DNA from: a virus
Reading direction: 5' to 3' (one strand)
IMG/VR virus record: IMGVR_UViG_3300026097_000612
Span: 1-20,887 of that record
Length of the DNA stretch: 20,887 nt
Shown: in pieces, positions 771 to 18,824 of the stretch
Position numbering within the stretch: position 1 is the stretch's first letter
How the letters are laid out: every line of letters starts with the position of its first letter
Made by a program: the position numbers and the translations under genes
The notes under the pieces: model-generated
Told to the model about the DNA's origin: nothing
Database searches by the model: none
The model's input: the letters and a program-made list of their open reading frames with translations, nothing else

Positions 771-1781
771 TTAGAGGCCAGTGGAGTATTGGTAGATAGC
801 GTCGCCAATATTGCCACTTATGAACATCTTAGTACCATCAGCGCTGAAAGCTAAGCCAATGGGAACAGTCTCCTGACCACTTACACTAAAGCTAACGCTA
901 TCATAAGAAGCAGTGCTCAGGTCAAATCCTGTAGACAAGCTGTATTGGTATATGCTGTCAGTGACAATACCAACTATGAACATCTGAGTGCCGTCAGGGT
1001 TGAAATCTAGGACATAAGGGCCAGTCTCCTGACCACTTACACTAAAGCTAACGCTATCATAAGAAGCAGTGCTCAGGTCAAATCCTGTAGACAAGCTGTA
1101 TTGGTATACGGTGTTGCTAGAGTTGCCAACCACATACATCTTAGTACCGTCAGTGTTGAAAACTAGGCCATTGGGGGTACCATCCTGACTAGCTACACTA
1201 AGGCTAACGCTATCATAAGAAGCAGTGCTTAGATCAAATCCTGTCGACAAGCTGTACTGGTATACACTGTCATTACTGCTTCCAGCTATGTACATCTTAG
1301 TTCCGTCAGTGTTGAAAGCTAGACCAGAGTGGCTAGTTTCCTGACTGCCTACACCAAAGAGAACGCTATCATAAGAAGCGGTGCTTATGTCAAAACCTGT
1401 CGACAAGCTGTACTGGTATACACTGTCATTACTGCTTCCAGCTATGTACATCTTAGTTCCGTCAGTGTTGAAAGCTATATCTCTGGGACTAGTTTCCTGA
1501 CTAGCTATACTAAAACTAACATTATCATAAGTCACATTGGATAAATCTACAGTCCAGCCTGAAGGAACAATCCCAATCTCCTTAAACTCACCGTTCAAAT
1601 ACTGGTACAGCACCTCGTTGGCGGTATCCCACCAGAAGTCACCCGTAGCTGGCGATGTAGGCTCAGTGGCGCTCTCAGTGTACCCTTGCAGGATACCGTT
1701 GCCGCCGATCTGAAATGCACCGTTTGGCAAGTCAACCGCAGAGCCACCGTTGATAAGTTCATCTGTCTTGAGTGTACTCAT
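771..1781 (-). CDS. Tail fibre-like protein with five beta-propeller blades (paralogue 3)
   Basis: 336 residues. Residues 1-75 form a head module (MSTLKTDELINGGS, then TEPTSPATGDFWWDTANE and LNGEFKEIG), a kind of short module seen near the N-terminus of phage fibre proteins. After a linker (GWTVDLSNVTYDNVSF) come five repeats of exactly 52 residues with the core GLAFNTDGTKMYIAGSSNDS followed by [19 protein letters not shown], resembling YVTN/6-bladed-type beta-propeller blades. The protein ends YQYSTGL. The last blade lacks its outer strand, which the N-terminal linker could supply. Probable role: receptor or surface-polysaccharide binding at the tail tip. The AGGA ribosome site lies nine bases before the ATG, inside the final codons of the preceding gene. 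Unlike paralogues 1 and 2, its own last codons lack AGGA. Function inferred. Confidence 0.8.
   Translation of the reverse strand: MSTLKTDELINGGSAVDLPNGAFQIGGNGILQGYTESATEPTSPATGDFWWDTANEVLYQYLNGEFKEIGIVPSGWTVDLSNVTYDNVSFSIASQETSPRDIAFNTDGTKMYIAGSSNDSVYQYSLSTGFDISTASYDSVLFGVGSQETSHSGLAFNTDGTKMYIAGSSNDSVYQYSLSTGFDLSTASYDSVSLSVASQDGTPNGLVFNTDGTKMYVVGNSSNTVYQYSLSTGFDLSTASYDSVSFSVSGQETGPYVLDFNPDGTQMFIVGIVTDSIYQYSLSTGFDLSTASYDSVSFSVSGQETVPIGLAFSADGTKMFISGNIGDAIYQYSTGL
866..1108. repeat. Perfect 87-bp direct repeat within paralogue 3
   Basis: Positions 866-952 and 1022-1108 are identical over 87 bases, offset by 156 bases, the length of one blade. They cover SLSTGFDLSTASYDSVSFSV and neighbours. Identity at silent positions points to recent duplication or conversion between blades. 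Confidence 0.9.
1240..1477. repeat. Perfect 82-bp direct repeat within paralogue 3
   Basis: Positions 1240-1321 and 1396-1477 are identical over 82 bases, again offset by 156. They cover LAFNTDGTKMYIAGSSNDSV and part of the next strand, a different part of the blade from the 87-bp pair. Confidence 0.9.
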
Positions 1782-1784
1782 CGG

Positions 1785-2816
1785 TTATAATCCTGTGCTG
1801 TATTGGTAGAGGGTGTCGCCTGAATTGCCGACTATGTACATCTTAGTGCCATCATGGCTAAATGTTAGGCCAACGGGAAGAGTATTCTGACTAGCTACAC
1901 TAAAGCTAACACTATCATATGAAGCTGTGCTTACATCAAAGCCTGTAGACAAACTATATTGAAAGACAGTGTCGTTGGAAAGACCAACCATGTACATCTT
2001 AGTACCGTCAGTGTTAAAGGTTACGCTAGCGGGAAGAGTATCCTGACTAGATACACTAAAGCTGACACTGTCGTATGAAGCTGTGCTTAGGTCAAAACCT
2101 GTAGACAAACTATATTGATGTACGCTGTCGCTAGAGATGCCAACCACATACATCTTAGTACCGTCAGTGTTAAAGGTTATGCCATAGGTATTAGTTTCTT
2201 GACTAGCTATGCTGAAGCTAACACTATCATATGAAGCTGTGCTTAGGTCAAAACCTGTAGACAAACTATATTGATATACGCTGTCGCTGTCAGTACCAAT
2301 TATATACATCTTAGTACCGTCAGAGTTGAAAGCTATCTCTCGGATAAAATTATCCTGACTAACTATGCTGAAGCTAACACTGTCATATGAGGCTGCGCTT
2401 AAGTCAAAAGCTGTGGACAAGCTGTATTGGTATACATTTTCATCTGAGGCACCAGCTAAATACATCTTAGTACCGTCAGTATTGAAAGCCATGCCTTGGG
2501 GATTCGCATCCTGACTGCCTACATCAAGGCTAACATTATCATAAGTCACATTGGACAAATCTACAGTCCAGCTTGCAGCGCCACCGCCCTCACCAATCAC
2601 ACGCTTCCACTCATCGTTGATGTAAACGTCATATGTGTCGTTGGCAGTGTCGTAGAACGTATCACCGTTTGCAGCGGCCTCTGGCTGCGTTTCACCTTCT
2701 GTGCGTGTAGGGGCCAACAAACCACTATCAACGCCAGATACCTTCACACCGTTGGTGAAGTTAGGGCTACCCGTGCCAGCACGGTCAGTAATCTTTTTGA
2801 TCTCAAGGTCGCTCAT
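1785..2816 (-). CDS. Tail fibre-like protein with five beta-propeller blades (paralogue 2)
   Basis: 343 residues with the same plan as its neighbours. The head begins MSDLEIKKITDRAGTGSPNF, matching the start of paralogue 1 ([17 protein letters not shown]), a signature often seen at the N-terminus of marine phage fibre proteins. It continues through NGDTFYDTANDTYDVYINDEWKRV and a glycine-rich hinge (GEGGGAAS) to the linker WTVDLSNVTYDNVSL, nearly identical to paralogue 3. Five 52-residue blades follow (typical core GITFNTDGTKMYVVGISSDS) and the protein ends YQYSTGL. Blades are closest to those of paralogue 3, the head closest to paralogue 1. AGGA in the last codons of paralogue 1 lies nine bases before this ATG. 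Likely a tail-tip adhesin; no enzymatic motif is seen. Confidence 0.8.
   Translation of the reverse strand: MSDLEIKKITDRAGTGSPNFTNGVKVSGVDSGLLAPTRTEGETQPEAAANGDTFYDTANDTYDVYINDEWKRVIGEGGGAASWTVDLSNVTYDNVSLDVGSQDANPQGMAFNTDGTKMYLAGASDENVYQYSLSTAFDLSAASYDSVSFSIVSQDNFIREIAFNSDGTKMYIIGTDSDSVYQYSLSTGFDLSTASYDSVSFSIASQETNTYGITFNTDGTKMYVVGISSDSVHQYSLSTGFDLSTASYDSVSFSVSSQDTLPASVTFNTDGTKMYMVGLSNDTVFQYSLSTGFDVSTASYDSVSFSVASQNTLPVGLTFSHDGTKMYIVGNSGDTLYQYSTGL
1791..1794 (-). promoter_or_regulatory. Ribosome binding site inside the C-terminal codons of paralogue 2
   Basis: AGGA is formed by the codons ACA GGA (Thr-Gly of YQYSTGL) and stands nine bases before ATG 1781 of paralogue 3. The 24 bases at 1787-1810 are identical to 2822-2845 at the end of paralogue 1. 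Confidence 0.6.
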
Positions 2817-2819
2817 AGA

Positions 2820-3854
2820 TCATAATCCTGTGCTGTATTGGTAGATGAAATCAGGGCTAGCAGTGTTCCCAATATACACTTTTGTCCCATCATAACTTAC
2901 ACTAGCACCTAGGGCTCCAGCAGGTGTGGCTAGTGTGCTAGAAAACGTAGCAGTTGTAAGATCATAAGCCGAAGATAAATTATATTGATGCAAGCTATCG
3001 GAATTAAAGCCCAGTATAAATAACTTATCACCCGCAGTATCAAAAAATATGCTAGTTAAGGATGCCTCTTTGGCGGATATATCAAGACTAACATTGTCAT
3101 ATGATGCTGTGCTTACGTCAAAAGCTGTGGATAAAGAGTATTGATATACTCGGTCCGAATCTCTCCCCCCAGCATACATCTTAGTTCCATCAAAGGTAAA
3201 ATACAAAGCCATCAGGTATGTTTCTTGAGAGGCAGCAGAGAAACTTACGTTGTCATAAGAAATTGTACTGGCATCAAATGCTGTGGATAAGCTGTACTGA
3301 TAGATACTATTGGTAGAGATGTCTGCTATAAACATCTTAGTGCCATCAGGGTTAAATTTAATGTTGGCAGGCTGGGTGGATTGTGAGGACAAACTGAACG
3401 ATACATTATCGTAAGTAGCTGTGGTAGTATCAAAGGCTGTTGAAAGACTGTATTGAAAAACACTATCGCTGCTAACGCCAACCAAGAACATCTTACTTCC
3501 ATCTGTACTGACCGCTACGGAATAGGGGCTTCCTTCTTGACCCCCCACTGCGAGTGGGTTGGAGTCTAGTGAAAGGTCAGCAGTGTTAAAGGTCCATGAG
3601 GGAGCAGAAATAGGAGCAGCAGCCCCAAGTTCAACTTCCTTAAACTCGCCAGCAATATACACCATCACTTTTTCGTTGGCTGTATCCCACCAGATAGCCC
3701 CATTCTTAGGGCTGGCAGGCTCAGTGGCGCTTGAATAGTACTCAGCAGTATTCAAAGTGCTCAAGGCGGAGCCAGCAACCGTCAACCCATCCGAAAAGTC
3801 AGGTGCACCCGTACCAGCCGCATCAGCGATGTTATCAACTTTGATCTGGGTCAT
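2820..3854 (-). CDS. Tail fibre-like protein with five beta-propeller blades (paralogue 1)
   Basis: 344 residues, first of three tandem paralogues in transcription order. The head reads [20 protein letters not shown], then [20 protein letters not shown] and [11 protein letters not shown]. Five blades follow that are more diverged than those of the other two copies (for example [20 protein letters not shown], then [19 protein letters not shown]); the fourth and fifth have lost part of the consensus ([32 protein letters not shown]). It ends YQYSTGL. The start ATG overlaps the TGA of the upstream fibre gene (ATGA), with GGAAGG about 11 bases upstream. Probable receptor-binding or fibre-tip subunit joined to the virion through the conserved head. 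Role inferred from domain type and position. Confidence 0.8.
2826..2829 (-). promoter_or_regulatory. Ribosome binding site inside the C-terminal codons of paralogue 1
   Basis: The same AGGA within ACA GGA, again nine bases before the next ATG (2816). The last paralogue, which has no close downstream gene, encodes the same YQYSTGL with TCC ACT GGC CTC and has no AGGA. Confidence 0.6.
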
Positions 3855-9427: not shown

Positions 9428-10041
9428 ATTGCCTCCATCGCGCTGAAGCTGATGCCGTAGATAGAAGCGTTGTTGATGCTCCAGTTGGTCTCGTTAGTCA
9501 TCAGCCTAAACTTGCCAACAGCGTTGCTCAAGGTGATTGATTCAGTACGGGTGCCGCGAACATGGGGCCAAACCTCAAGCGAAGTCTGCCCACTTGCATT
9601 CGTGCTGGCGTTCTCCAAAACCTTGTGCAGCGTAGCATCTGCGCCACTGCCGATCTGTATGTAGTCCCCCGCAAGGAGCCAATTAGATTTATTGTTCGAT
9701 GCCCCCGTGACCGCAATCGTACCCCCAGTCTGACTGGTGATAACAGGCGTTCCGGGGAATGTTGAAGCCAGTCCGCGTGGCGTGCAAGCAATCGGATCAC
9801 CCAGCAAAAATGTACCAAACTGCCCCCGGAGGGAAACAAGCCAAGCAACCCACTGCTCCGCGTCAGCCCGCTTCATTGGCGGCAGGGACACATCTGCTTC
9901 CCATGATTGACCTGAGTAGGCGTGAGACTGACCAGCAAACGTAAACGGGCTGCGAGAGTAGGCAACAGCGTTTTTCGCGCGAAGATCAATCTGAGCAACA
10001 CCTGTATGGGTCAGGAAACTCCGAGGATAAGATATAGCCAT
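9424..10041 (-). CDS. Distal tail-like protein (position of GTA gp12)
   Basis: 205 residues beginning MAISYPRSFLTHTGVAQIDL. The section MKRADAEQWVAWLVSLRGQF followed by GTFLLGDPIACTPRG is characteristic of a tail protein type found after the tape measure in many marine and alphaproteobacterial phages. A beta-rich second half contains WLLAGDYIQIG and LEVWPHVRGTR. By position it corresponds to GTA gp12 (DUF2460), the distal tail ring under the tape measure, but the sequence does not clearly show the DUF2460 pattern, so the match is by position and general type. Its ATG shares bases with the tape measure stop (TAATG). Confidence 0.7.
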   Translation of the reverse strand: MAISYPRSFLTHTGVAQIDLRAKNAVAYSRSPFTFAGQSHAYSGQSWEADVSLPPMKRADAEQWVAWLVSLRGQFGTFLLGDPIACTPRGLASTFPGTPVITSQTGGTIAVTGASNNKSNWLLAGDYIQIGSGADATLHKVLENASTNASGQTSLEVWPHVRGTRTESITLSNAVGKFRLMTNETNWSINNASIYGISFSAMEAI

Positions 10042-11990
10042 TATGAAAACGCCTTTCCGTATGAGCCGCCCTGACGCTTGGCATCAAGCACCGCAGCCTT
10101 TGACGCTTCAACCATTCTAGGCAGAAGCGCGCTGACCTCAGATCGCGTGACGCCGCTTTGGAACGTGTTGTTCTGGATGACAGTCACGCCATCGCCGCCA
10201 CCGTTAGCCATGTTGTTCGTCTGGGCTGCACTCAGAACGCGCCCGTTTACTTTAGGCACAAACAATTCCCTGCCATGCTCACCCGTCACATAAGGTTCGC
10301 CAGCCGTCACAGGACGGCCAGAAGCAGCAGGCCTAATCGGTGGACGCAGGCTGGTTGTTGGAGCACCCCCGGCACCCCCGGCACCCCCGCCAAATGCGCC
10401 TGTGATTGCGCTGACTAAGCGCTGAACAACAAGTACGCGATACAGTTCCTTGATAATCTGAGCCGCCATAGACTTGAAAGCATCCTTAGCGGACTCAGTG
10501 CCATCAATCATAGACATGAAGGTGCTTTCCATGCTGCCTTCTACAGTTCCCATGATGTTATCAAAATCTTCCGCACTCGCGCCAAGAGCGTCAAAAGCAG
10601 AAGGCACAGTTGCTATAGCTTCCAGCAAGCCAGAGATGTCGGTCGCGGCACGAGCCGCCCCGTTACTCAGGCGATCTGATAAAACTACTGGCTCAACAAG
10701 GCTGTCACCAAAAGAAACCATACCGTTGCTTGCGTTAGACAGCGCCTCCTCCAAGGCTTTTATATTTTCCTTTGTTCTAATCAACTGCTCGGACATTTCG
10801 CTATCAGCGGCGAGCATATCAGCCTGCTTGTTGAGCATATCTACTAAAGATTGCTGCGTTTCATCATAGCTGGCTGCGTTCAGTAGCGTTCGCTGCCCCA
10901 GCGCACGCATCGCGTCTCTTGCGGTGTTTATTCTTTCCATTAAGGATGAATACTCATCGCTGCCTAAGGCATTCGCGCGGTTTTCTGCAATGATAGCCTT
11001 TACGTTTTCATGCCTAGACTTAGCTTCTTCTAGCTTTTTAGAAGCTGCATCAACAGACATCGCAGTAGAACGGCCTAAGGTAATCTCTAACTTCTGAGAC
11101 TGAAGAATTTCATCGCCAAGAGCGAGAACAAGGTTTGAGGTTGCAGTTTCAAGATCACTTTGCGGGTCTAGGAAGCGATCAACAGCCTGAATAGCAGCAA
11201 CGGTGTTCTTTACGATTGCAGCGAAGCCCTCGGCTGCACCCACAAGAATTGGGGCCAACTCTGAAAGCGCAACAGAAAGTTGCGCCCTAATAATAGCAGA
11301 AGCCGCGTCCAATCGCGTTTGTGCTTCTTCTGCGCTGCGAATTAACTCTTCATCTATAACAGCACCGGCGGAATTAGCCGCAGCCTGCATTTCGCCAAGA
11401 GCAGATGAACCGCTGCGCAACATGTTCACCATCGCAACGCCTTCACGCCCAAACAAAGCGGCAGCTTTAGCCGCTCGCTCTGTGGGGCTTCCAATTTGAG
11501 CCATTTCATCCGCAACGACCTTTAGCGCATCGTCAATAGGTATTGACGTTAGTTCGTCAGCCTGAAGCCCCATTTCCTCAAGAGCTTTTTTTGCTGCGCC
11601 AGTGCCCATCTCGGCCTCGCCAAGACGCTTGGAAAAACGCTCAAGGCTTGATGTAAACTTTTGCTGGGAAACACCTGCGCCCTCAGCAACGAAACGCAAC
11701 TCTTGCAAAGCGTCAGTCGAAATCCCGATCTGGTCTGCCTTTTTGCCGATCTCATCCATTTCAGTTGTGATCTGCTTAACCTGCGCGATTATCATACCTG
11801 CACCAAGCGCAGGTAGAAAACGGCGAGCCGCTGTAGCGAGCATGTCAAATTTAGCCGATGTCCCTTTCAGGCTCTTGTTCGACTGCTTAGCGAAACGCTC
11901 AACACGCTTTTGGTTTCGCTCCATTGCTTTCGTGAACTCTTTGTCACGAGCGTTCAGGATGATGTTGAGTTGTTCTGCGCTAATTGCCAT
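10041..11990 (-). CDS. Tail tape measure protein
   Basis: 649 residues, highly helical. It sets tail length and is ejected with the DNA. The start (MAISAEQLNIILNARDKEFT, then KAMERNQKRVERFAKQSNKS) is the usual tape measure N-terminus with basic coiled-coil sequence. The stretch IGKKADQIGISTDALQELRF matches a common prophage tail length region. Hydrophobic segments occur near residues 52-67 and 235-265, a Gly-Gly-Ala repeat near 534-543, and the C-terminal GEHGRELFVPKVNGRVLS is a recurrent end motif. At about 1.5 angstrom per residue the tail would be roughly 100 nm long. GGAG lies seven bases before the ATG. It overlaps the second chaperone frame by 11 bases. Confidence 0.92.
   Translation of the reverse strand: MAISAEQLNIILNARDKEFTKAMERNQKRVERFAKQSNKSLKGTSAKFDMLATAARRFLPALGAGMIIAQVKQITTEMDEIGKKADQIGISTDALQELRFVAEGAGVSQQKFTSSLERFSKRLGEAEMGTGAAKKALEEMGLQADELTSIPIDDALKVVADEMAQIGSPTERAAKAAALFGREGVAMVNMLRSGSSALGEMQAAANSAGAVIDEELIRSAEEAQTRLDAASAIIRAQLSVALSELAPILVGAAEGFAAIVKNTVAAIQAVDRFLDPQSDLETATSNLVLALGDEILQSQKLEITLGRSTAMSVDAASKKLEEAKSRHENVKAIIAENRANALGSDEYSSLMERINTARDAMRALGQRTLLNAASYDETQQSLVDMLNKQADMLAADSEMSEQLIRTKENIKALEEALSNASNGMVSFGDSLVEPVVLSDRLSNGAARAATDISGLLEAIATVPSAFDALGASAEDFDNIMGTVEGSMESTFMSMIDGTESAKDAFKSMAAQIIKELYRVLVVQRLVSAITGAFGGGAGGAGGAPTTSLRPPIRPAASGRPVTAGEPYVTGEHGRELFVPKVNGRVLSAAQTNNMANGGGDGVTVIQNNTFQSGVTRSEVSALLPRMVEASKAAVLDAKRQGGSYGKAFS
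10363..10389 (-). repeat. Three perfect 9-bp direct repeats in the tape measure gene
   Basis: The plus-strand unit gcacccccg occurs three times in tandem, encoding three Gly-Gly-Ala triplets in the flexible C-terminal linker of the tape measure protein. Such a tract can change copy number by slippage without breaking the frame. Confidence 0.9.
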
Positions 11991-12159
11991 CTACCCGCTC
12001 CACAAGTTCACGATATTGCTGAGCCGTCATGGCATCAGAACCAGCTTTCTTTGGCGAGTGTGCATCAGACCACCCCTCAAAAACAAGCCATGTGTCTTTT
12101 GGCACCATATCACGGATTTCTTCAGGTTTTAACCCTGCAACAATCCCGTTCTTTATCAT
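11980..12159 (-). CDS. Second tail assembly chaperone frame (Phage_TAC_6-like)
   Basis: A 59-codon frame, MIKNGIVAGLKPEEIRDMVP to the end motif AMTAQQYRELVERVDGN, between the GTA-gp10-like chaperone and the tape measure. The place and the ending (MTxxxLxxLVERxx-like) fit the small second chaperone of GTA-like tails (DUF2376/Phage_TAC_6), which bridges chaperone and tape measure. As a free-standing gene its ATG at 12159 has no proper ribosome site: AGAGG lies only one base before it and AAGG about 14 bases before it. The frame stays open upstream through the chaperone's end to the A-run, so it is more likely translated as a -1 frameshift extension. It overlaps the tape measure start by 11 bases. 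Confidence 0.65.
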   Translation of the reverse strand: MIKNGIVAGLKPEEIRDMVPKDTWLVFEGWSDAHSPKKAGSDAMTAQQYRELVERVDGN

Positions 12160-12548
12160 GCCTCTGACGTTCAGCCTTCTAGGGTTTGGTCCGCCGTCTT
12201 TTTTTTTACATCCGACTCTTCAACTGCATCAGGCATGAAAGCAACACCCAAGGCTGCTTGCCCGATCTGGAAAAGCCGCATCAAGTCAGCGGGAGAACAC
12301 TTGGCAATAACTTCATCTGCCTCATGATCCTTCATACCACCACCAACCAACGCTAATGCCAGCAAATCACGGACCTCAACACTGGAAGGCTTGGTGCCAC
12401 GGCCAAAGAACCCGTCCCAAAGTTCAAAGATGCCACGATGCTTGTCCTCAAACCGCTCAATCTCACGATTGCGGAGCCGGAACGTATAGGAGGTGTCGCC
12501 GATATACTCGACAACACCCCCGCGCGGCGCTTCAGCCGTGATGCTCAT
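11980..12548 (-). CDS. Frameshifted long tail assembly chaperone (predicted -1 fusion)
   Basis: This entry is the predicted fusion made when ribosomes slip back one base on A AAA AAG (12204-12198), near the end of the chaperone gene at 12548-12171. After the slip, the -1 frame is open without a stop from GAC 12198 to TAG 11982-11980. It reads DGGPNPRRLNVRGM and then the 59-residue downstream frame. The product has 117 + 72 = 189 residues, an architecture parallel to lambda gpG/gpGT. Length arithmetic agrees: 569 bases plus one re-read base is 190 codons including the stop. RcGTA makes its two chaperones from separate genes, so the fusion here is an inference from sequence. No experimental evidence is available. 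Confidence 0.65.
12171..12548 (-). CDS. Tail assembly chaperone, GTA gp10-like (Phage_TAC_11)
   Basis: 125 residues. GDTSYTFRLRNREIERFEDK and HRGIFELWDGFFGRGTKPSS, then VRDLLALALVGGGMKDHEAD and LMRLFQIGQAALGVAFMP, fit the GTA gp10 chaperone family. Such proteins coat the tape measure while the tail tube grows. The last part is acidic and then lysine-rich (AVEESDVKKKTADQTLEG), and the codons GTA AAA AAA AAG form a run of nine A holding the slippery heptamer A AAA AAG. The gene begins directly after the major tail protein stop (TAAATG), with only a weak GGCGG upstream, so it may rely on coupling. Confidence 0.85.
   Translation of the reverse strand: MSITAEAPRGGVVEYIGDTSYTFRLRNREIERFEDKHRGIFELWDGFFGRGTKPSSVEVRDLLALALVGGGMKDHEADEVIAKCSPADLMRLFQIGQAALGVAFMPDAVEESDVKKKTADQTLEG
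12198..12207 (-). promoter_or_regulatory. Slippery sequence for -1 ribosomal frameshift
   Basis: The minus strand holds nine consecutive A followed by G, read in frame as A AAA AAA AAG. The last seven bases, A AAA AAG, are the X XXY YYZ heptamer used by E. coli dnaX. Only 8 codons of the chaperone remain downstream, and the -1 frame is open into the next chaperone domain. A downstream stimulating structure is not obvious: GACG and CGTC about 29 bases apart could pair weakly. Transcript slippage on the A-run is an alternative mechanism. Confidence 0.7.
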
Positions 12549-12974
12549 TTATGCCGCCGTAAAGGTGACTACACCGTTGCTTTCAAGAGACAGCGAGTAA
12601 GTCACGCCGCCTTCCGTCTCGCCACCGAACTCAAGCGATGTGATGCGGAACCCGCCAGCATATGTGCCAAAGTCAGGCACGACGATCTGCATATTGACCG
12701 CGTTATCAGCAGACATGGCGACAGTGTTCATACGAGCCTCTGCCGTGCTGTCCTCAAAGAAGCCGTCACCGGAAACAGCGACGTTCTTCAGGCCAGCGAG
12801 CGTTTCAGTCCACAGCGCACCTTCTGGTGCCGTGCAATCTGGCGTCGTAACGTCAATCGAAGAGTTGTTGATTGTGAGCGACTTGCTGTTCAATCCACAC
12901 AGGTTTGCAAAAGTTTCAGATGCCTCGCCGTCGCCGATTTTGACCAGCAGGGCGCGTCCAAGTTGTTTAGCCAT
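12549..12974 (-). CDS. Major tail protein (GTA gp9 / TP901-1 type)
   Basis: 141 residues that assemble into the tail tube. MAKQLGRALLVKIGDGEASE, then FANLCGLNSKSLTINNSSID, VTTPDCTAPEGALWTETLAG and the end YSLSLESNGVVTFTAA match the TP901-1/GTA major tail protein family. Two ATG codons are adjacent at 12977 and 12974. AAGGAGG is three bases from the first and six from the second, so the second is chosen. This is among the strongest ribosome sites of the window, as expected for an abundant virion protein. A small hairpin stands just before it. Confidence 0.88.
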   Translation of the reverse strand: MAKQLGRALLVKIGDGEASETFANLCGLNSKSLTINNSSIDVTTPDCTAPEGALWTETLAGLKNVAVSGDGFFEDSTAEARMNTVAMSADNAVNMQIVVPDFGTYAGGFRITSLEFGGETEGGVTYSLSLESNGVVTFTAA

Positions 12975-12992
12975 CATCGGCCTCCTTTAAGA

Positions 12993-16321: not shown

Positions 16322-17263
16322 TTACAGCTTAGCCTTCATGCGAAGGCGTCGTGCCGCTTGTGACTTCTGCTTTTCCGCACGATGCTGCTGCAACGCACGC
16401 AAACCGATTTCTGTGCCATCATAAGCTGGGGTCGTTACGATTGACACATCATAAAGCTGTAGGTCTTGAATGCTGCGGCGAGGCATATCACCACTGTCAT
16501 CCCACTCTTGACGTGTCGGGACAAATGCAAACGACATCTTGTCAAGATCGCCACGCTTCATCTTAGGTACGATACTGCGAACGTCTGGATCGCTTGCATC
16601 TAGGTAAGTGTCCACAAACAAGCCGCGATCATCTTCACGCAGGCTCAAAGTACCTGAACGAGTGCGCGCCAATGGCAATCCATCGTGGTTAATCAAGAAG
16701 ACAACATCATCGTTGCGCTCAAGCGCACTCTTAAATGCGCCACGCTCAATGACCTCACGGAACATGCCGCCGATGTTTGTCTCTTCACCAAATACAGCAG
16801 CATACCCAGTAACACGGATGCCGCCGTCATCTTCGGCACGAACCTCAATGCGCTTGGTCGGACGGAACTCGCGCTCTTGCTCTTCTGCAATCTCAGGCTC
16901 TTCGTATTCTTCAGACTTACCGAAAACAACAATCACTTCGTCTTCAGTCTCTTCAATGCGCTTGATGTGGCGCTTCTTCTTGCCATCCTCATCGTAAGCG
17001 CGCGCCGAAACCTTAGTGAGAGTGCTGAACTTGTGTCCAACGCGGGTGCCAGAAGGCCCCCAGCCATCCTCAACTTCACGATAAACCATAATTAACGCAG
17101 CAGGGTCATCCTCAGTGCCAGTGATGGTGAAGTCTGTGTCAGGCACGTCAATTTCGCCGTCACGCACAATGCGCTCAACTTGGCCGTAGACTTCGCCACC
17201 CGAACTGTCCCAAGTGACGTAATCATCAACGCTCAATTCATCAGGTTCTGCGCGATGCTGCAT
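16322..17263 (-). CDS. Possible nested short form of the prohead protease
   Basis: Inside the protease gene, GGAGG (17273-17269) lies five bases before the in-frame ATG 17263, a better ribosome site than that of the full-length start. Translation from here would give 313 residues, MQHRAEPDELSVDDYVTWDS onward, that is the Tudor-like domain plus protease without the first domain. The start falls exactly in the low-complexity linker between domains. Nested in-frame head genes are known from lambda C/Nu3. Whether this form is made is not known. Confidence 0.4.
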   Translation of the reverse strand: MQHRAEPDELSVDDYVTWDSSGGEVYGQVERIVRDGEIDVPDTDFTITGTEDDPAALIMVYREVEDGWGPSGTRVGHKFSTLTKVSARAYDEDGKKKRHIKRIEETEDEVIVVFGKSEEYEEPEIAEEQEREFRPTKRIEVRAEDDGGIRVTGYAAVFGEETNIGGMFREVIERGAFKSALERNDDVVFLINHDGLPLARTRSGTLSLREDDRGLFVDTYLDASDPDVRSIVPKMKRGDLDKMSFAFVPTRQEWDDSGDMPRRSIQDLQLYDVSIVTTPAYDGTEIGLRALQQHRAEKQKSQAARRLRMKAKL

Positions 17264-17614
17264 TGTAGCCTCCATTTGTTGCGACAATACCACAGAACTG
17301 CGCTCATCGTCCACTTGTTCTAATTGAGCGTTAGCCCAAGACCTGCCAGCGTCACCGCCCCAGAGCGCCCACGCGATGCGACCGTTGCTTGGATAGCCAT
17401 CCTCGCCGGGACGGAAGCCTTCAGCCTCCTTGTCCACCTCATGCCGCGAAAAATAACTAGCCATGCGCTGCACGGTTTCCATGCTAAGGTTTTCGCCGTT
17501 TGAAATGTCACGCGCACGAGCGATGCCAACCTCAGTTCCGCCGCGACCAAATTCACGACGCCAAGAAAGGCCGCGCTCAGCCTCTTCACGCATTGCCTTA
17601 TTCGGTGTCGGCAT
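16322..17614 (-). CDS. Prohead protease with two extra N-terminal domains
   Basis: 430 residues. The C-terminal part (about 255-405) is an HK97-type prohead serine protease: VTGYAAVFGEETNIGGMFRE, VIERGAFKSAL, LINHDG with the likely catalytic His310, and DLDKMSFAFVP with likely nucleophile Ser361. It would trim the capsid delta domain. Residues about 1-100 (REEAERGLSWRREFGRGGTE, VGIARARDISNG, YPSNGRIAWALWGGDAGRSW) form a basic domain of unknown function that I recall from other phage proteins. Residues about 125-202 (VDDYVTWDSSGGEVYGQVER, TGTEDDPAALIMVYRE, GHKFSTLTKV) resemble a Tudor-like DUF2945-type domain. ATG 17614 is favoured by the domain boundary, though only GGGGG lies upstream; a GTG at 17653 is possible. 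It overlaps the portal gene by 17 bases. A strong internal start exists at 17263. Confidence 0.88.
   Translation of the reverse strand: MPTPNKAMREEAERGLSWRREFGRGGTEVGIARARDISNGENLSMETVQRMASYFSRHEVDKEAEGFRPGEDGYPSNGRIAWALWGGDAGRSWANAQLEQVDDERSSVVLSQQMEATMQHRAEPDELSVDDYVTWDSSGGEVYGQVERIVRDGEIDVPDTDFTITGTEDDPAALIMVYREVEDGWGPSGTRVGHKFSTLTKVSARAYDEDGKKKRHIKRIEETEDEVIVVFGKSEEYEEPEIAEEQEREFRPTKRIEVRAEDDGGIRVTGYAAVFGEETNIGGMFREVIERGAFKSALERNDDVVFLINHDGLPLARTRSGTLSLREDDRGLFVDTYLDASDPDVRSIVPKMKRGDLDKMSFAFVPTRQEWDDSGDMPRRSIQDLQLYDVSIVTTPAYDGTEIGLRALQQHRAEKQKSQAARRLRMKAKL
17269..17273 (-). promoter_or_regulatory. Strong internal ribosome binding site
   Basis: GGAGG followed by CTACA and ATG on the minus strand, in frame within the protease fusion gene and at its first domain boundary. 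It would decide the start of the short protease form. Confidence 0.45.
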
Positions 17615-18824
17615 TAAAACCCCCAACCTGCGCAGAGATTGGAACAGTTGCACCCTGCACCATCAAGCTGTCGCCACCATCAACAGGCGGCATATTCTCA
17701 ATCGTGCGCACCTCATTCGGCGTGCGGATCGCGTTTTGGATTGTTGTCGCGTGCGCATCCATGCGGGTCTTGAAGTCGCCACGCAGAAGGCCGTCAACAT
17801 TGAACTCGACGTATTGCTTGGACCCGCGCGGGAACAGCTTCAGGTTCATTTCTTGCTCAACCTGCTCAATCCAGCGCTTCAGCGTGTGCTTAACAAACTG
17901 CAAATCCTGCTGCTCAGTGTTGCTGAACGTCCCGTGCGTAAGGTCTTGCAAGAATACAGGCGGCAGGCTGTATATACGAGCGATCTGCTCAATGCTAAAG
18001 CGCTGCAACTCAATAAGCTGCATTTGCTCTGGGTTGAAGCCGATCTGCTTCATTTCGTGACCCATTGGCAGCGCCATCACAGGCCGACCTTCACGCGCCA
18101 GCTTGGCAGTGGTCTTGGCAACGTCATCTGACGCCCTGCTGGCCGCTGCGCCGCTCTGGAACGGGCCTTGCAGAACGACGGGCGGGATACCACCGCTCTG
18201 GAACGCCTTAGCCCCGTAGCGGCTGGCTGCGATAGCCATGCCAATCGCATCTCGGTTCGTAGAGATTGGGCCTCGCACGTCCAAGCCGTTTGATTTCAGC
18301 ATAAATGGCACGTCAAGAACTTCAGCCGCAGAATAGGTTTGCCCCTTGTGAAGGTAAACCCGAACCTGACGACGGCCCTCTGTGCGATGCTCAACTCGCG
18401 TGTATTTTGGGTCAAGCGGCCAAAGGTTCTTCACAGCGCCATTGCCAGAGCGCTCGATGTAAGTAACGCAACGTCCGCCAGTGAATACCTGATCGAACAT
18501 ATACTTGCGCCACTCAAACGACGACATGCTGTCGTTCGCCACATCGTGCAGTATGCCTTCAAGCGGACCTGTCGCCCGCTGACGACCCTTTGTCGTCTTG
18601 CGGTAAACGTGCAAAGGCAGACCTGCCAACGTGCCACTCAGAAAGTTGACCGCAGCCCAAACCGCAGGAACGCCTAGCGCCGTGTCAGTGTTGACCGTCA
18701 CGCCTGCGGAAGCCGTCATTTCACCCCAGCCCATGACTTGCAGAAAGTCTTCTGCCGACACAGGAGCGTTTGGGTTTTCAAGATTGCGACTTTCCGTTTT
18801 GCGGAAGCGGTCAAATAATGCCAT
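17598..18824 (-). CDS. Portal protein, HK97 family
   Basis: 408 residues. It forms the dodecameric ring at one head vertex, docking the terminase and the neck. SAGVTVNTDTALGVPAVWAA, VNFLSGTLAGLPLHVYR, SSFEWRKYMFDQVFTGGRCV, and RFSIEQIARIYSLPPVFLQD, LTHGTFSNTEQQDLQFVKHT, LKRWIEQVEQEMNLKLF are the standard motifs of this family. ATG 18824 follows GAGGA by eight bases; a TTG at 18851 without a better site is rejected. It overlaps the protease gene at its end. A small stem (CGAG/CTCG) could partly mask the GAGGA. Confidence 0.94.
   Translation of the reverse strand: MALFDRFRKTESRNLENPNAPVSAEDFLQVMGWGEMTASAGVTVNTDTALGVPAVWAAVNFLSGTLAGLPLHVYRKTTKGRQRATGPLEGILHDVANDSMSSFEWRKYMFDQVFTGGRCVTYIERSGNGAVKNLWPLDPKYTRVEHRTEGRRQVRVYLHKGQTYSAAEVLDVPFMLKSNGLDVRGPISTNRDAIGMAIAASRYGAKAFQSGGIPPVVLQGPFQSGAAASRASDDVAKTTAKLAREGRPVMALPMGHEMKQIGFNPEQMQLIELQRFSIEQIARIYSLPPVFLQDLTHGTFSNTEQQDLQFVKHTLKRWIEQVEQEMNLKLFPRGSKQYVEFNVDGLLRGDFKTRMDAHATTIQNAIRTPNEVRTIENMPPVDGGDSLMVQGATVPISAQVGGFNADTE

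Follow-up and report, generated by a model that had tools for sequence, protein, structure and literature searches.

INTRODUCTION

Frameshifting in tail chaperone genes is a standard example of recoding by the ribosome. In lambda and its relatives among the dsDNA phages, the G and G-T pair lies between the genes of the tail tube and the tape measure and consists of a short product and its extension in the -1 frame. An experimentally tested tail chaperone cluster showed 6-7% frameshifting (PMC3711429), and phages of R. capsulatus are said to carry, as a rule, a programmed translational frameshift in their chaperone genes (PMC8601537). Gene transfer agents (GTAs) of the RcGTA type differ in that g10 (PF11836) and g10.1 (PF09550) are separate genes, the second with a start of its own.

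A frame can also be changed during transcription. Bacterial RNA polymerase slips efficiently at nine A's or T's, and the dnaX gene of Thermus, which has two lysine tRNAs, uses a run of nine (PMC5009743). On runs of 7-11 A's, bases are inserted at least twice as often as they are deleted (PMC6260861), and a run of 11 A's in tssM leads to a shift of about 20% (PMC4256274). In the literature that we covered, which is incomplete, we found no report of transcriptional slippage for a tail assembly chaperone. Here, we describe a tail chaperone gene of a virus in which a run of nine A's (A9) joins two overlapping frames.

RESULTS

A split chaperone gene in the tail module

The DNA analysed here (the window) is the linear virus record IMGVR_UViG_3300026097_000612, 20,887 nt in length. 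Transcription of the minus strand runs through the small and large terminase subunits, portal, protease, capsid, adaptor and head closure, followed by an HK97 gp10-like gene, tail terminator, tail tube, the chaperone gene, tape measure, distal tail protein and further tail genes. The window reads as a siphophage contig with terminase, portal, an HK97-type head and a GTA-like tail module; given its small and large terminase, portal, protease and capsid genes, it reads as a phage and not demonstrably as a GTA. Two further features of the contig were seen in passing. The frame of the head maturation protease (16322-17653, minus strand) has an extra N-terminal part that matches PHROG 2859, a family of unknown function, and three tandem paralogous genes of about 340 residues lie at 771-3854 (minus strand), with neighbours 66% and 47% identical; their repeats match beta-propeller families (SGL, lactonase) weakly, and they are probably tail-associated.

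The chaperone gene (12171-12548, minus strand) sits between the major tail tube gene (12549-12977, minus strand; PF06199, E = 1.8e-28; PHROG 1407) and the tape measure gene (10041-11990, minus strand; PHROG 9483, E = 1.6e-39), and it has an overlapping downstream frame, as expected of a pair of the lambda G and G-T kind. Its zero-frame product of 125 residues passes the curated cut-off of PF11836 (Phage_TAC_11 / GTA-gp10) with 30.1 against 27.8 bits and also matches PHROG 8985. The AlphaFold model of this product has a mean pLDDT of 87.6, and a PDB fold search with it gave nothing below E 0.8. PF11836, despite its Pfam name, is described by Pfam and PHROG as a tail tube protein; here the tube is the neighbouring gene.

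From its ATG at 12548, the gene runs to the end GTA AAA AAA AAG ACG GCG GAC CAA ACC CTA GAA GGC TGA. The A9 run occupies 12207-12199 and is followed by a G at 12198, so that A AAA AAG (12204-12198) lies in phase, exactly where the initial annotation had placed it. A second in-phase heptamer, A AAA AAA (12207-12201), overlaps the first, and both have the X XXY YYZ form of a site of ribosomal -1 frameshifting. Translation also bore out the two frames: the zero frame stops eight codons after the AAG of the run (TGA, 12173-12171), while the -1 frame (12198-11980, minus strand) is free of stops for 72 codons, from DGGPNPR to RVDGN, passes through a small frame with an ATG of its own and ends at a TAG (11982-11980), overlapping over 11 nt with the tape measure gene, whose ATG is at 11990. 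With the shift at AAG, the fusion would comprise 117 + 72 = 189 residues.

Searched directly, the -1 product matched nothing in Pfam, PHROG or the phages collection. No direct hit to PF09550 (Phage_TAC_6 / GTA gp10.1) reached the cut-off, two relatives scoring 13 bits against 23.4, and distant homology to GTA gp10.1 was found by profile comparison (hhalign, E = 2e-6, probability 89.5). Its AlphaFold model has a mean pLDDT of 84.6, and the one real match in BFVD is a 59-residue uncharacterised phage protein, 78% identical.

The length of the run is conserved, its codon phase is not

Six productive scans of viral contigs and genome searches gave 170 distinct relatives in which both domains could be placed; the cellular genomes with relatives are of the Rhodobacteraceae family. 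A class-level search of 385 genomes yielded no new members beyond the seed genome, and a further alignment-based scan returned mostly loci already found. Exactly nine A's make up the run in 153 of the 170 distinct relatives (325 of 344 fetched loci, a figure that includes overlapping fetches of the same contigs). Clustering at 80% identity gave 58 clusters and, with one row per cluster and site type, 60 representatives, among which 45 have A9. In the 297,080 bases of the 60 representative related loci there is no other run of nine or more A's or T's and there are two A8 runs. Because exactly A9 stands here in 153 of 170 relatives and nowhere else in 297 kb, its presence at the chaperone site is not chance. 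This is the alignment of relatives that the initial annotation had called for, and the -1 frame is open in those relatives that have the -1 relation.

Is it the slippery heptamer that is conserved, or the run? The 153 A9 members fall into phase 2 with the -1 relation (100), phase 0 (45), phase 1 (4) and phase 2 with the downstream domain at +1 (4); among the A9 representatives, 21 have phase 0, 4 phase 1 and 20 phase 2. On the tree of the 60 rows, parsimony requires at least eight changes of phase among A9 members and at least seven changes between A9 and heptamer-only sites, counts that are rough, since many forks are weakly supported. In each of the three phases, a run of seven A's is enough to hold an in-phase A AAA AAA; thus, the heptamer does not explain a length of nine. 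Transcriptional slippage would be expected to leave this very pattern, a homopolymer of A or T of 8-9 bases or more with length and not phase conserved. In the phase-2 members, the codon before the lysine run encodes V, S, A, I, T or L, but its last base is A in 104 of 104 (log10 P of -22 from the genes' own codon usage in 20 representatives, a value that treats lineages as independent and is indicative only). The base before A9 is a pyrimidine in 44 of the 45 representatives and G in the remaining one, and the base after it is G in 40 of 45; these flanks do not depend on phase, and shared descent contributes to them.

Relatives with other runs are few. Six have A6 followed by G, giving A AAA AAG; of those with A7, three give A AAA AAG (phase 1) and one A AAA AAA (phase 2). 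Two others (L193, L274) replace the A-run by G GGA AAG, the slip site of lambda. The lineages that lack A9 and keep a canonical heptamer (L155, L193, L274, L276, L279, L282, L291, L292, L297, L306) are nearly all of those without A9, often with hairpins or Shine-Dalgarno-like motifs. Across relatives, the slippery sequence is conserved and the two frames stand in a fixed relation, with the exception of the clade of L126, L135, L139 and L154, of L140, which has A8, and of the Rhodobacter phage RcapNL, which has A7 and both domains in one fused frame of 190 codons. The L126 clade has A9 with the second domain in the +1 frame, so that a shift of +1 or -2 would be needed; this arrangement is consistent over four contigs with some sequence differences.

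Several members deserve a remark of their own. RcapNL gp16 (L085, 3001-3573) is the only named phage relative and may make no short form, or make one by some other route. The most distant member, L195, has no A-run; only G GAA AAG precedes the stop at the 3' end of its zero frame, and the downstream domain lies in -1. A zero-frame homologue in L003 (3001-3216) stops early, after 72 codons, has no A-run in place and is probably a degraded copy. L001 (PBTA01000007.1) carries this alphaproteobacterial-type phage module on a contig of a MAG named Euryarchaeota, probably a binning error.

Polymerase or ribosome?

We compared the surroundings of A9 and heptamer-only sites. Over the 50 nt downstream, the mean structure z is -0.07 for the A9 class (n=45) and -1.44 for the heptamer-only class (n=10), a difference that holds after GC matching, though on small numbers (p=0.005; GC-matched p=0.011; 10 vs 45). 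Upstream motifs resembling a Shine-Dalgarno sequence are also stronger in the heptamer-only class (p = 0.025; GC-matched 0.059). The A9 class is unstructured over these 50 nt and so lacks the usual, though not obligatory, downstream stimulator of ribosomal shifting.

Since the run is phase-free, has pyrimidine and G flanks and lacks ribosomal stimulators, and since the L126 clade needs the other frame, we favour slippage of RNA polymerase, which probably acts as the main agent at A9, over a shift made by the ribosome alone, an account that we regard as possible but clearly less likely. The latter would have ribosomes move back by one on the tandem A AAA AAA / A AAA AAG, as in lambda G and G-T and in E. 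coli dnaX, with the extra A's only raising efficiency. The window does have a canonical heptamer in phase, as do those A9 relatives whose second domain lies at -1; A AAA AAA is in phase within every A9, and in the window A AAA AAG is too, so that ribosomes could shift here as well. The A9-less homologues, including those with G GGA AAG, probably use ribosomes, so that the ancestral mechanism may be ribosomal, and programmed translational shifts are described as usual for R. capsulatus phage tail chaperones (PMC8601537). In one Rhodobacteraceae-family genome that carries a relative, tRNA-Lys(UUU) is the only lysine tRNA among 43 tRNA matches, a list that is incomplete in that some expected tRNAs are missing; it is with such a tRNA set that ribosomes shift on dnaX in E. 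coli. E. coli RNA polymerase, moreover, prefers T runs and slips less on A runs (PMC6260861).

Weighed against the ribosome as sole agent, nine A's are kept in three phases although seven suffice, within flanks that are independent of phase, and the protein does not need KKK, as heptamer-only relatives (L297, L306, L276) have KK only. The A9 representatives lack downstream structure, and the L126 clade needs a frame that a -1 shift cannot serve, although a -2 ribosomal shift could. The initial annotation had proposed a GTA-type chaperone pair joined by a dnaX-like site. The pair stands, with its PF11836 match, its gp10.1-like domain and a conserved shift; a mechanism like that of E. coli dnaX does not follow, given a run free in phase, the L126 clade at +1 and the missing stimulators, and the pattern of A9 conservation resembles dnaX of Thermus, where RNA polymerase slips, more than the ribosomal shift of E. 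coli dnaX.

The second frame codes before its first ATG

The small frame has an ATG at 12159-12157 (minus strand) and 59 codons, and it could be translated as a second protein, coupled after the TGA and with no fusion. This is precisely the arrangement of true GTAs, an ATG is in place in 34 of the 38 closest relatives, and a 59-residue protein is on record in BFVD/UniProt, by annotation. We nevertheless consider a separate start very improbable. The initial annotation had judged this ATG to be without a usable ribosome site, and indeed AGAGG lies only 1 nt before it, with no Shine-Dalgarno sequence at proper spacing. The ATG is also not conserved: TTA replaces it in 4 of the 38, and an in-frame ATG is missing from this vicinity in 37 of 53 lineages.

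Codon-position variability was determined in the 38 close relatives with an ungapped spacer. For positions 1, 2 and 3 of the -1 frame it was 0.33, 0.38 and 0.51 between the run and the zero-frame stop, and 0.37, 0.19 and 0.60 between that stop and the ATG; within the small frame, too, the third position is the most variable. As third positions vary most already between run and ATG, the -1 frame is coding there. In the AlphaFold model, the first helix of the -1 product spans residues 11-20, and the small-frame ATG corresponds to residue 14, so the helix begins before the ATG. RcapNL, in turn, fuses both domains in its single frame. As the ATG is lost in many lineages and the -1 frame codes upstream of it, we reject separate initiation; judged by its sequence, the extension is expressed only after a shift.

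The contrast with RcGTA, for which the initial annotation had named two separate chaperone genes, is borne out by 30 GTA g10 loci from Rhodobacteraceae-family genomes. In 29 of them, the gp10.1 frame has a start of its own that coincides with the g10 stop or lies close to it; A-runs around this stop reach 4 at most, and there is one isolated heptamer only and no shared slippery site. The window, in contrast, does not have g10 and g10.1 as separate genes with their own starts. Two separate genes and no A-run, a pattern that the initial annotation had named as a possible refutation, characterise the true GTAs; nearly all A9-less relatives of the window keep the heptamer.

A homopolymer between two frames is also the usual anatomy of a contingency locus, in which switching between A9 and A10 at the DNA level would toggle the fusion within the population. 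A10 is present in only 2 of the 170 distinct relatives, where the -1 relation is kept and the frames are not fused, and the chaperone ratio would probably be disturbed in a population that makes purely the fusion or purely the short form; we therefore reject phase variation as a highly unlikely account. That the split is a homopolymer indel of sequencing or assembly in a gene that is truly one in-frame fusion can be practically dismissed. Homopolymers are indeed error-prone, L140 has A8, and RcapNL with its A7 carries both domains in one frame; but this split, with exactly A9, is found again in well over 100 contigs and in cellular genomes, over diverse lineages and three phases, and heptamer-only relatives keep it without a long run.

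DISCUSSION

We conclude that A9 is almost certainly a programmed recoding site by which one gene would give two tail chaperones, a short form of 125 residues and a fusion of 189. Unshifted expression would yield the short form. RNA polymerase slipping on A9 and adding one A would let ordinary translation continue into the -1 frame, and some of the fusion may also come from ribosomes that shift on these A's. In the L126 clade, slippage that loses one A or adds two could serve the +1 frame. By analogy with lambda G and G-T, many short and few long copies may cover the tape measure and bring in the tube protein.

How does this locus compare with those described before? With RcGTA it shares a first gene that is homologous (PF11836) and a second domain that is distantly so, but its extension needs a shift at A9, whereas GTA g10.1 has its own start. 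It resembles lambda in gene order, in the pairing of a short product with a -1 extension and, in some relatives, in the use of G GGA AAG; its proteins, however, are of the GTA-gp10/gp10.1 type, and most relatives have a phase-free A9 without recognisable ribosomal stimulators. With dnaX of Thermus thermophilus it has in common a nine-base homopolymer and homologues elsewhere that use A AAA AAG on the ribosome, whereas in Thermus the long product is the unshifted one and slippage was demonstrated, while here the long product would need the shift and slippage is deduced from conservation. RcapNL gp16 has the same two domains and gene order, but its A7 lies in an uninterrupted frame, so that the long form needs no shift. 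The Dinoroseobacter phage vB_DshS-R4C is likewise a siphophage of Rhodobacteraceae with a GTA-like tail and a -1 frame after its annotated chaperone, but its chaperone proteins are others and its slip site is G GGA AAC, directly before the stop. That -1 frame (L422, 8840-8998) is unannotated, likely a frameshift product missed in the published genome.

Frameshifted tail chaperones were already known; new are a run of nine A's that is free in phase and a type of site that has switched repeatedly. We lean towards the view that these alphaproteobacterial phage chaperones set their ratio of short to long form by polymerase slippage at a phase-free Y-A9-G, swapped repeatedly, in at least seven changes, with stimulated ribosomal -1 heptamers, which would make them a natural series of replacements of recoding mechanism at one gene. 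In practice, gene callers either miss the 189-residue fusion or annotate a 59-residue fragment that starts at an ATG without conservation. Should polymerase slippage do this job in a large phage clade, transcription would be the step that sets the product ratio, and the clade with its mixture of A9 and heptamer sites would offer a test set for the replacement of recoding mechanisms by one another.
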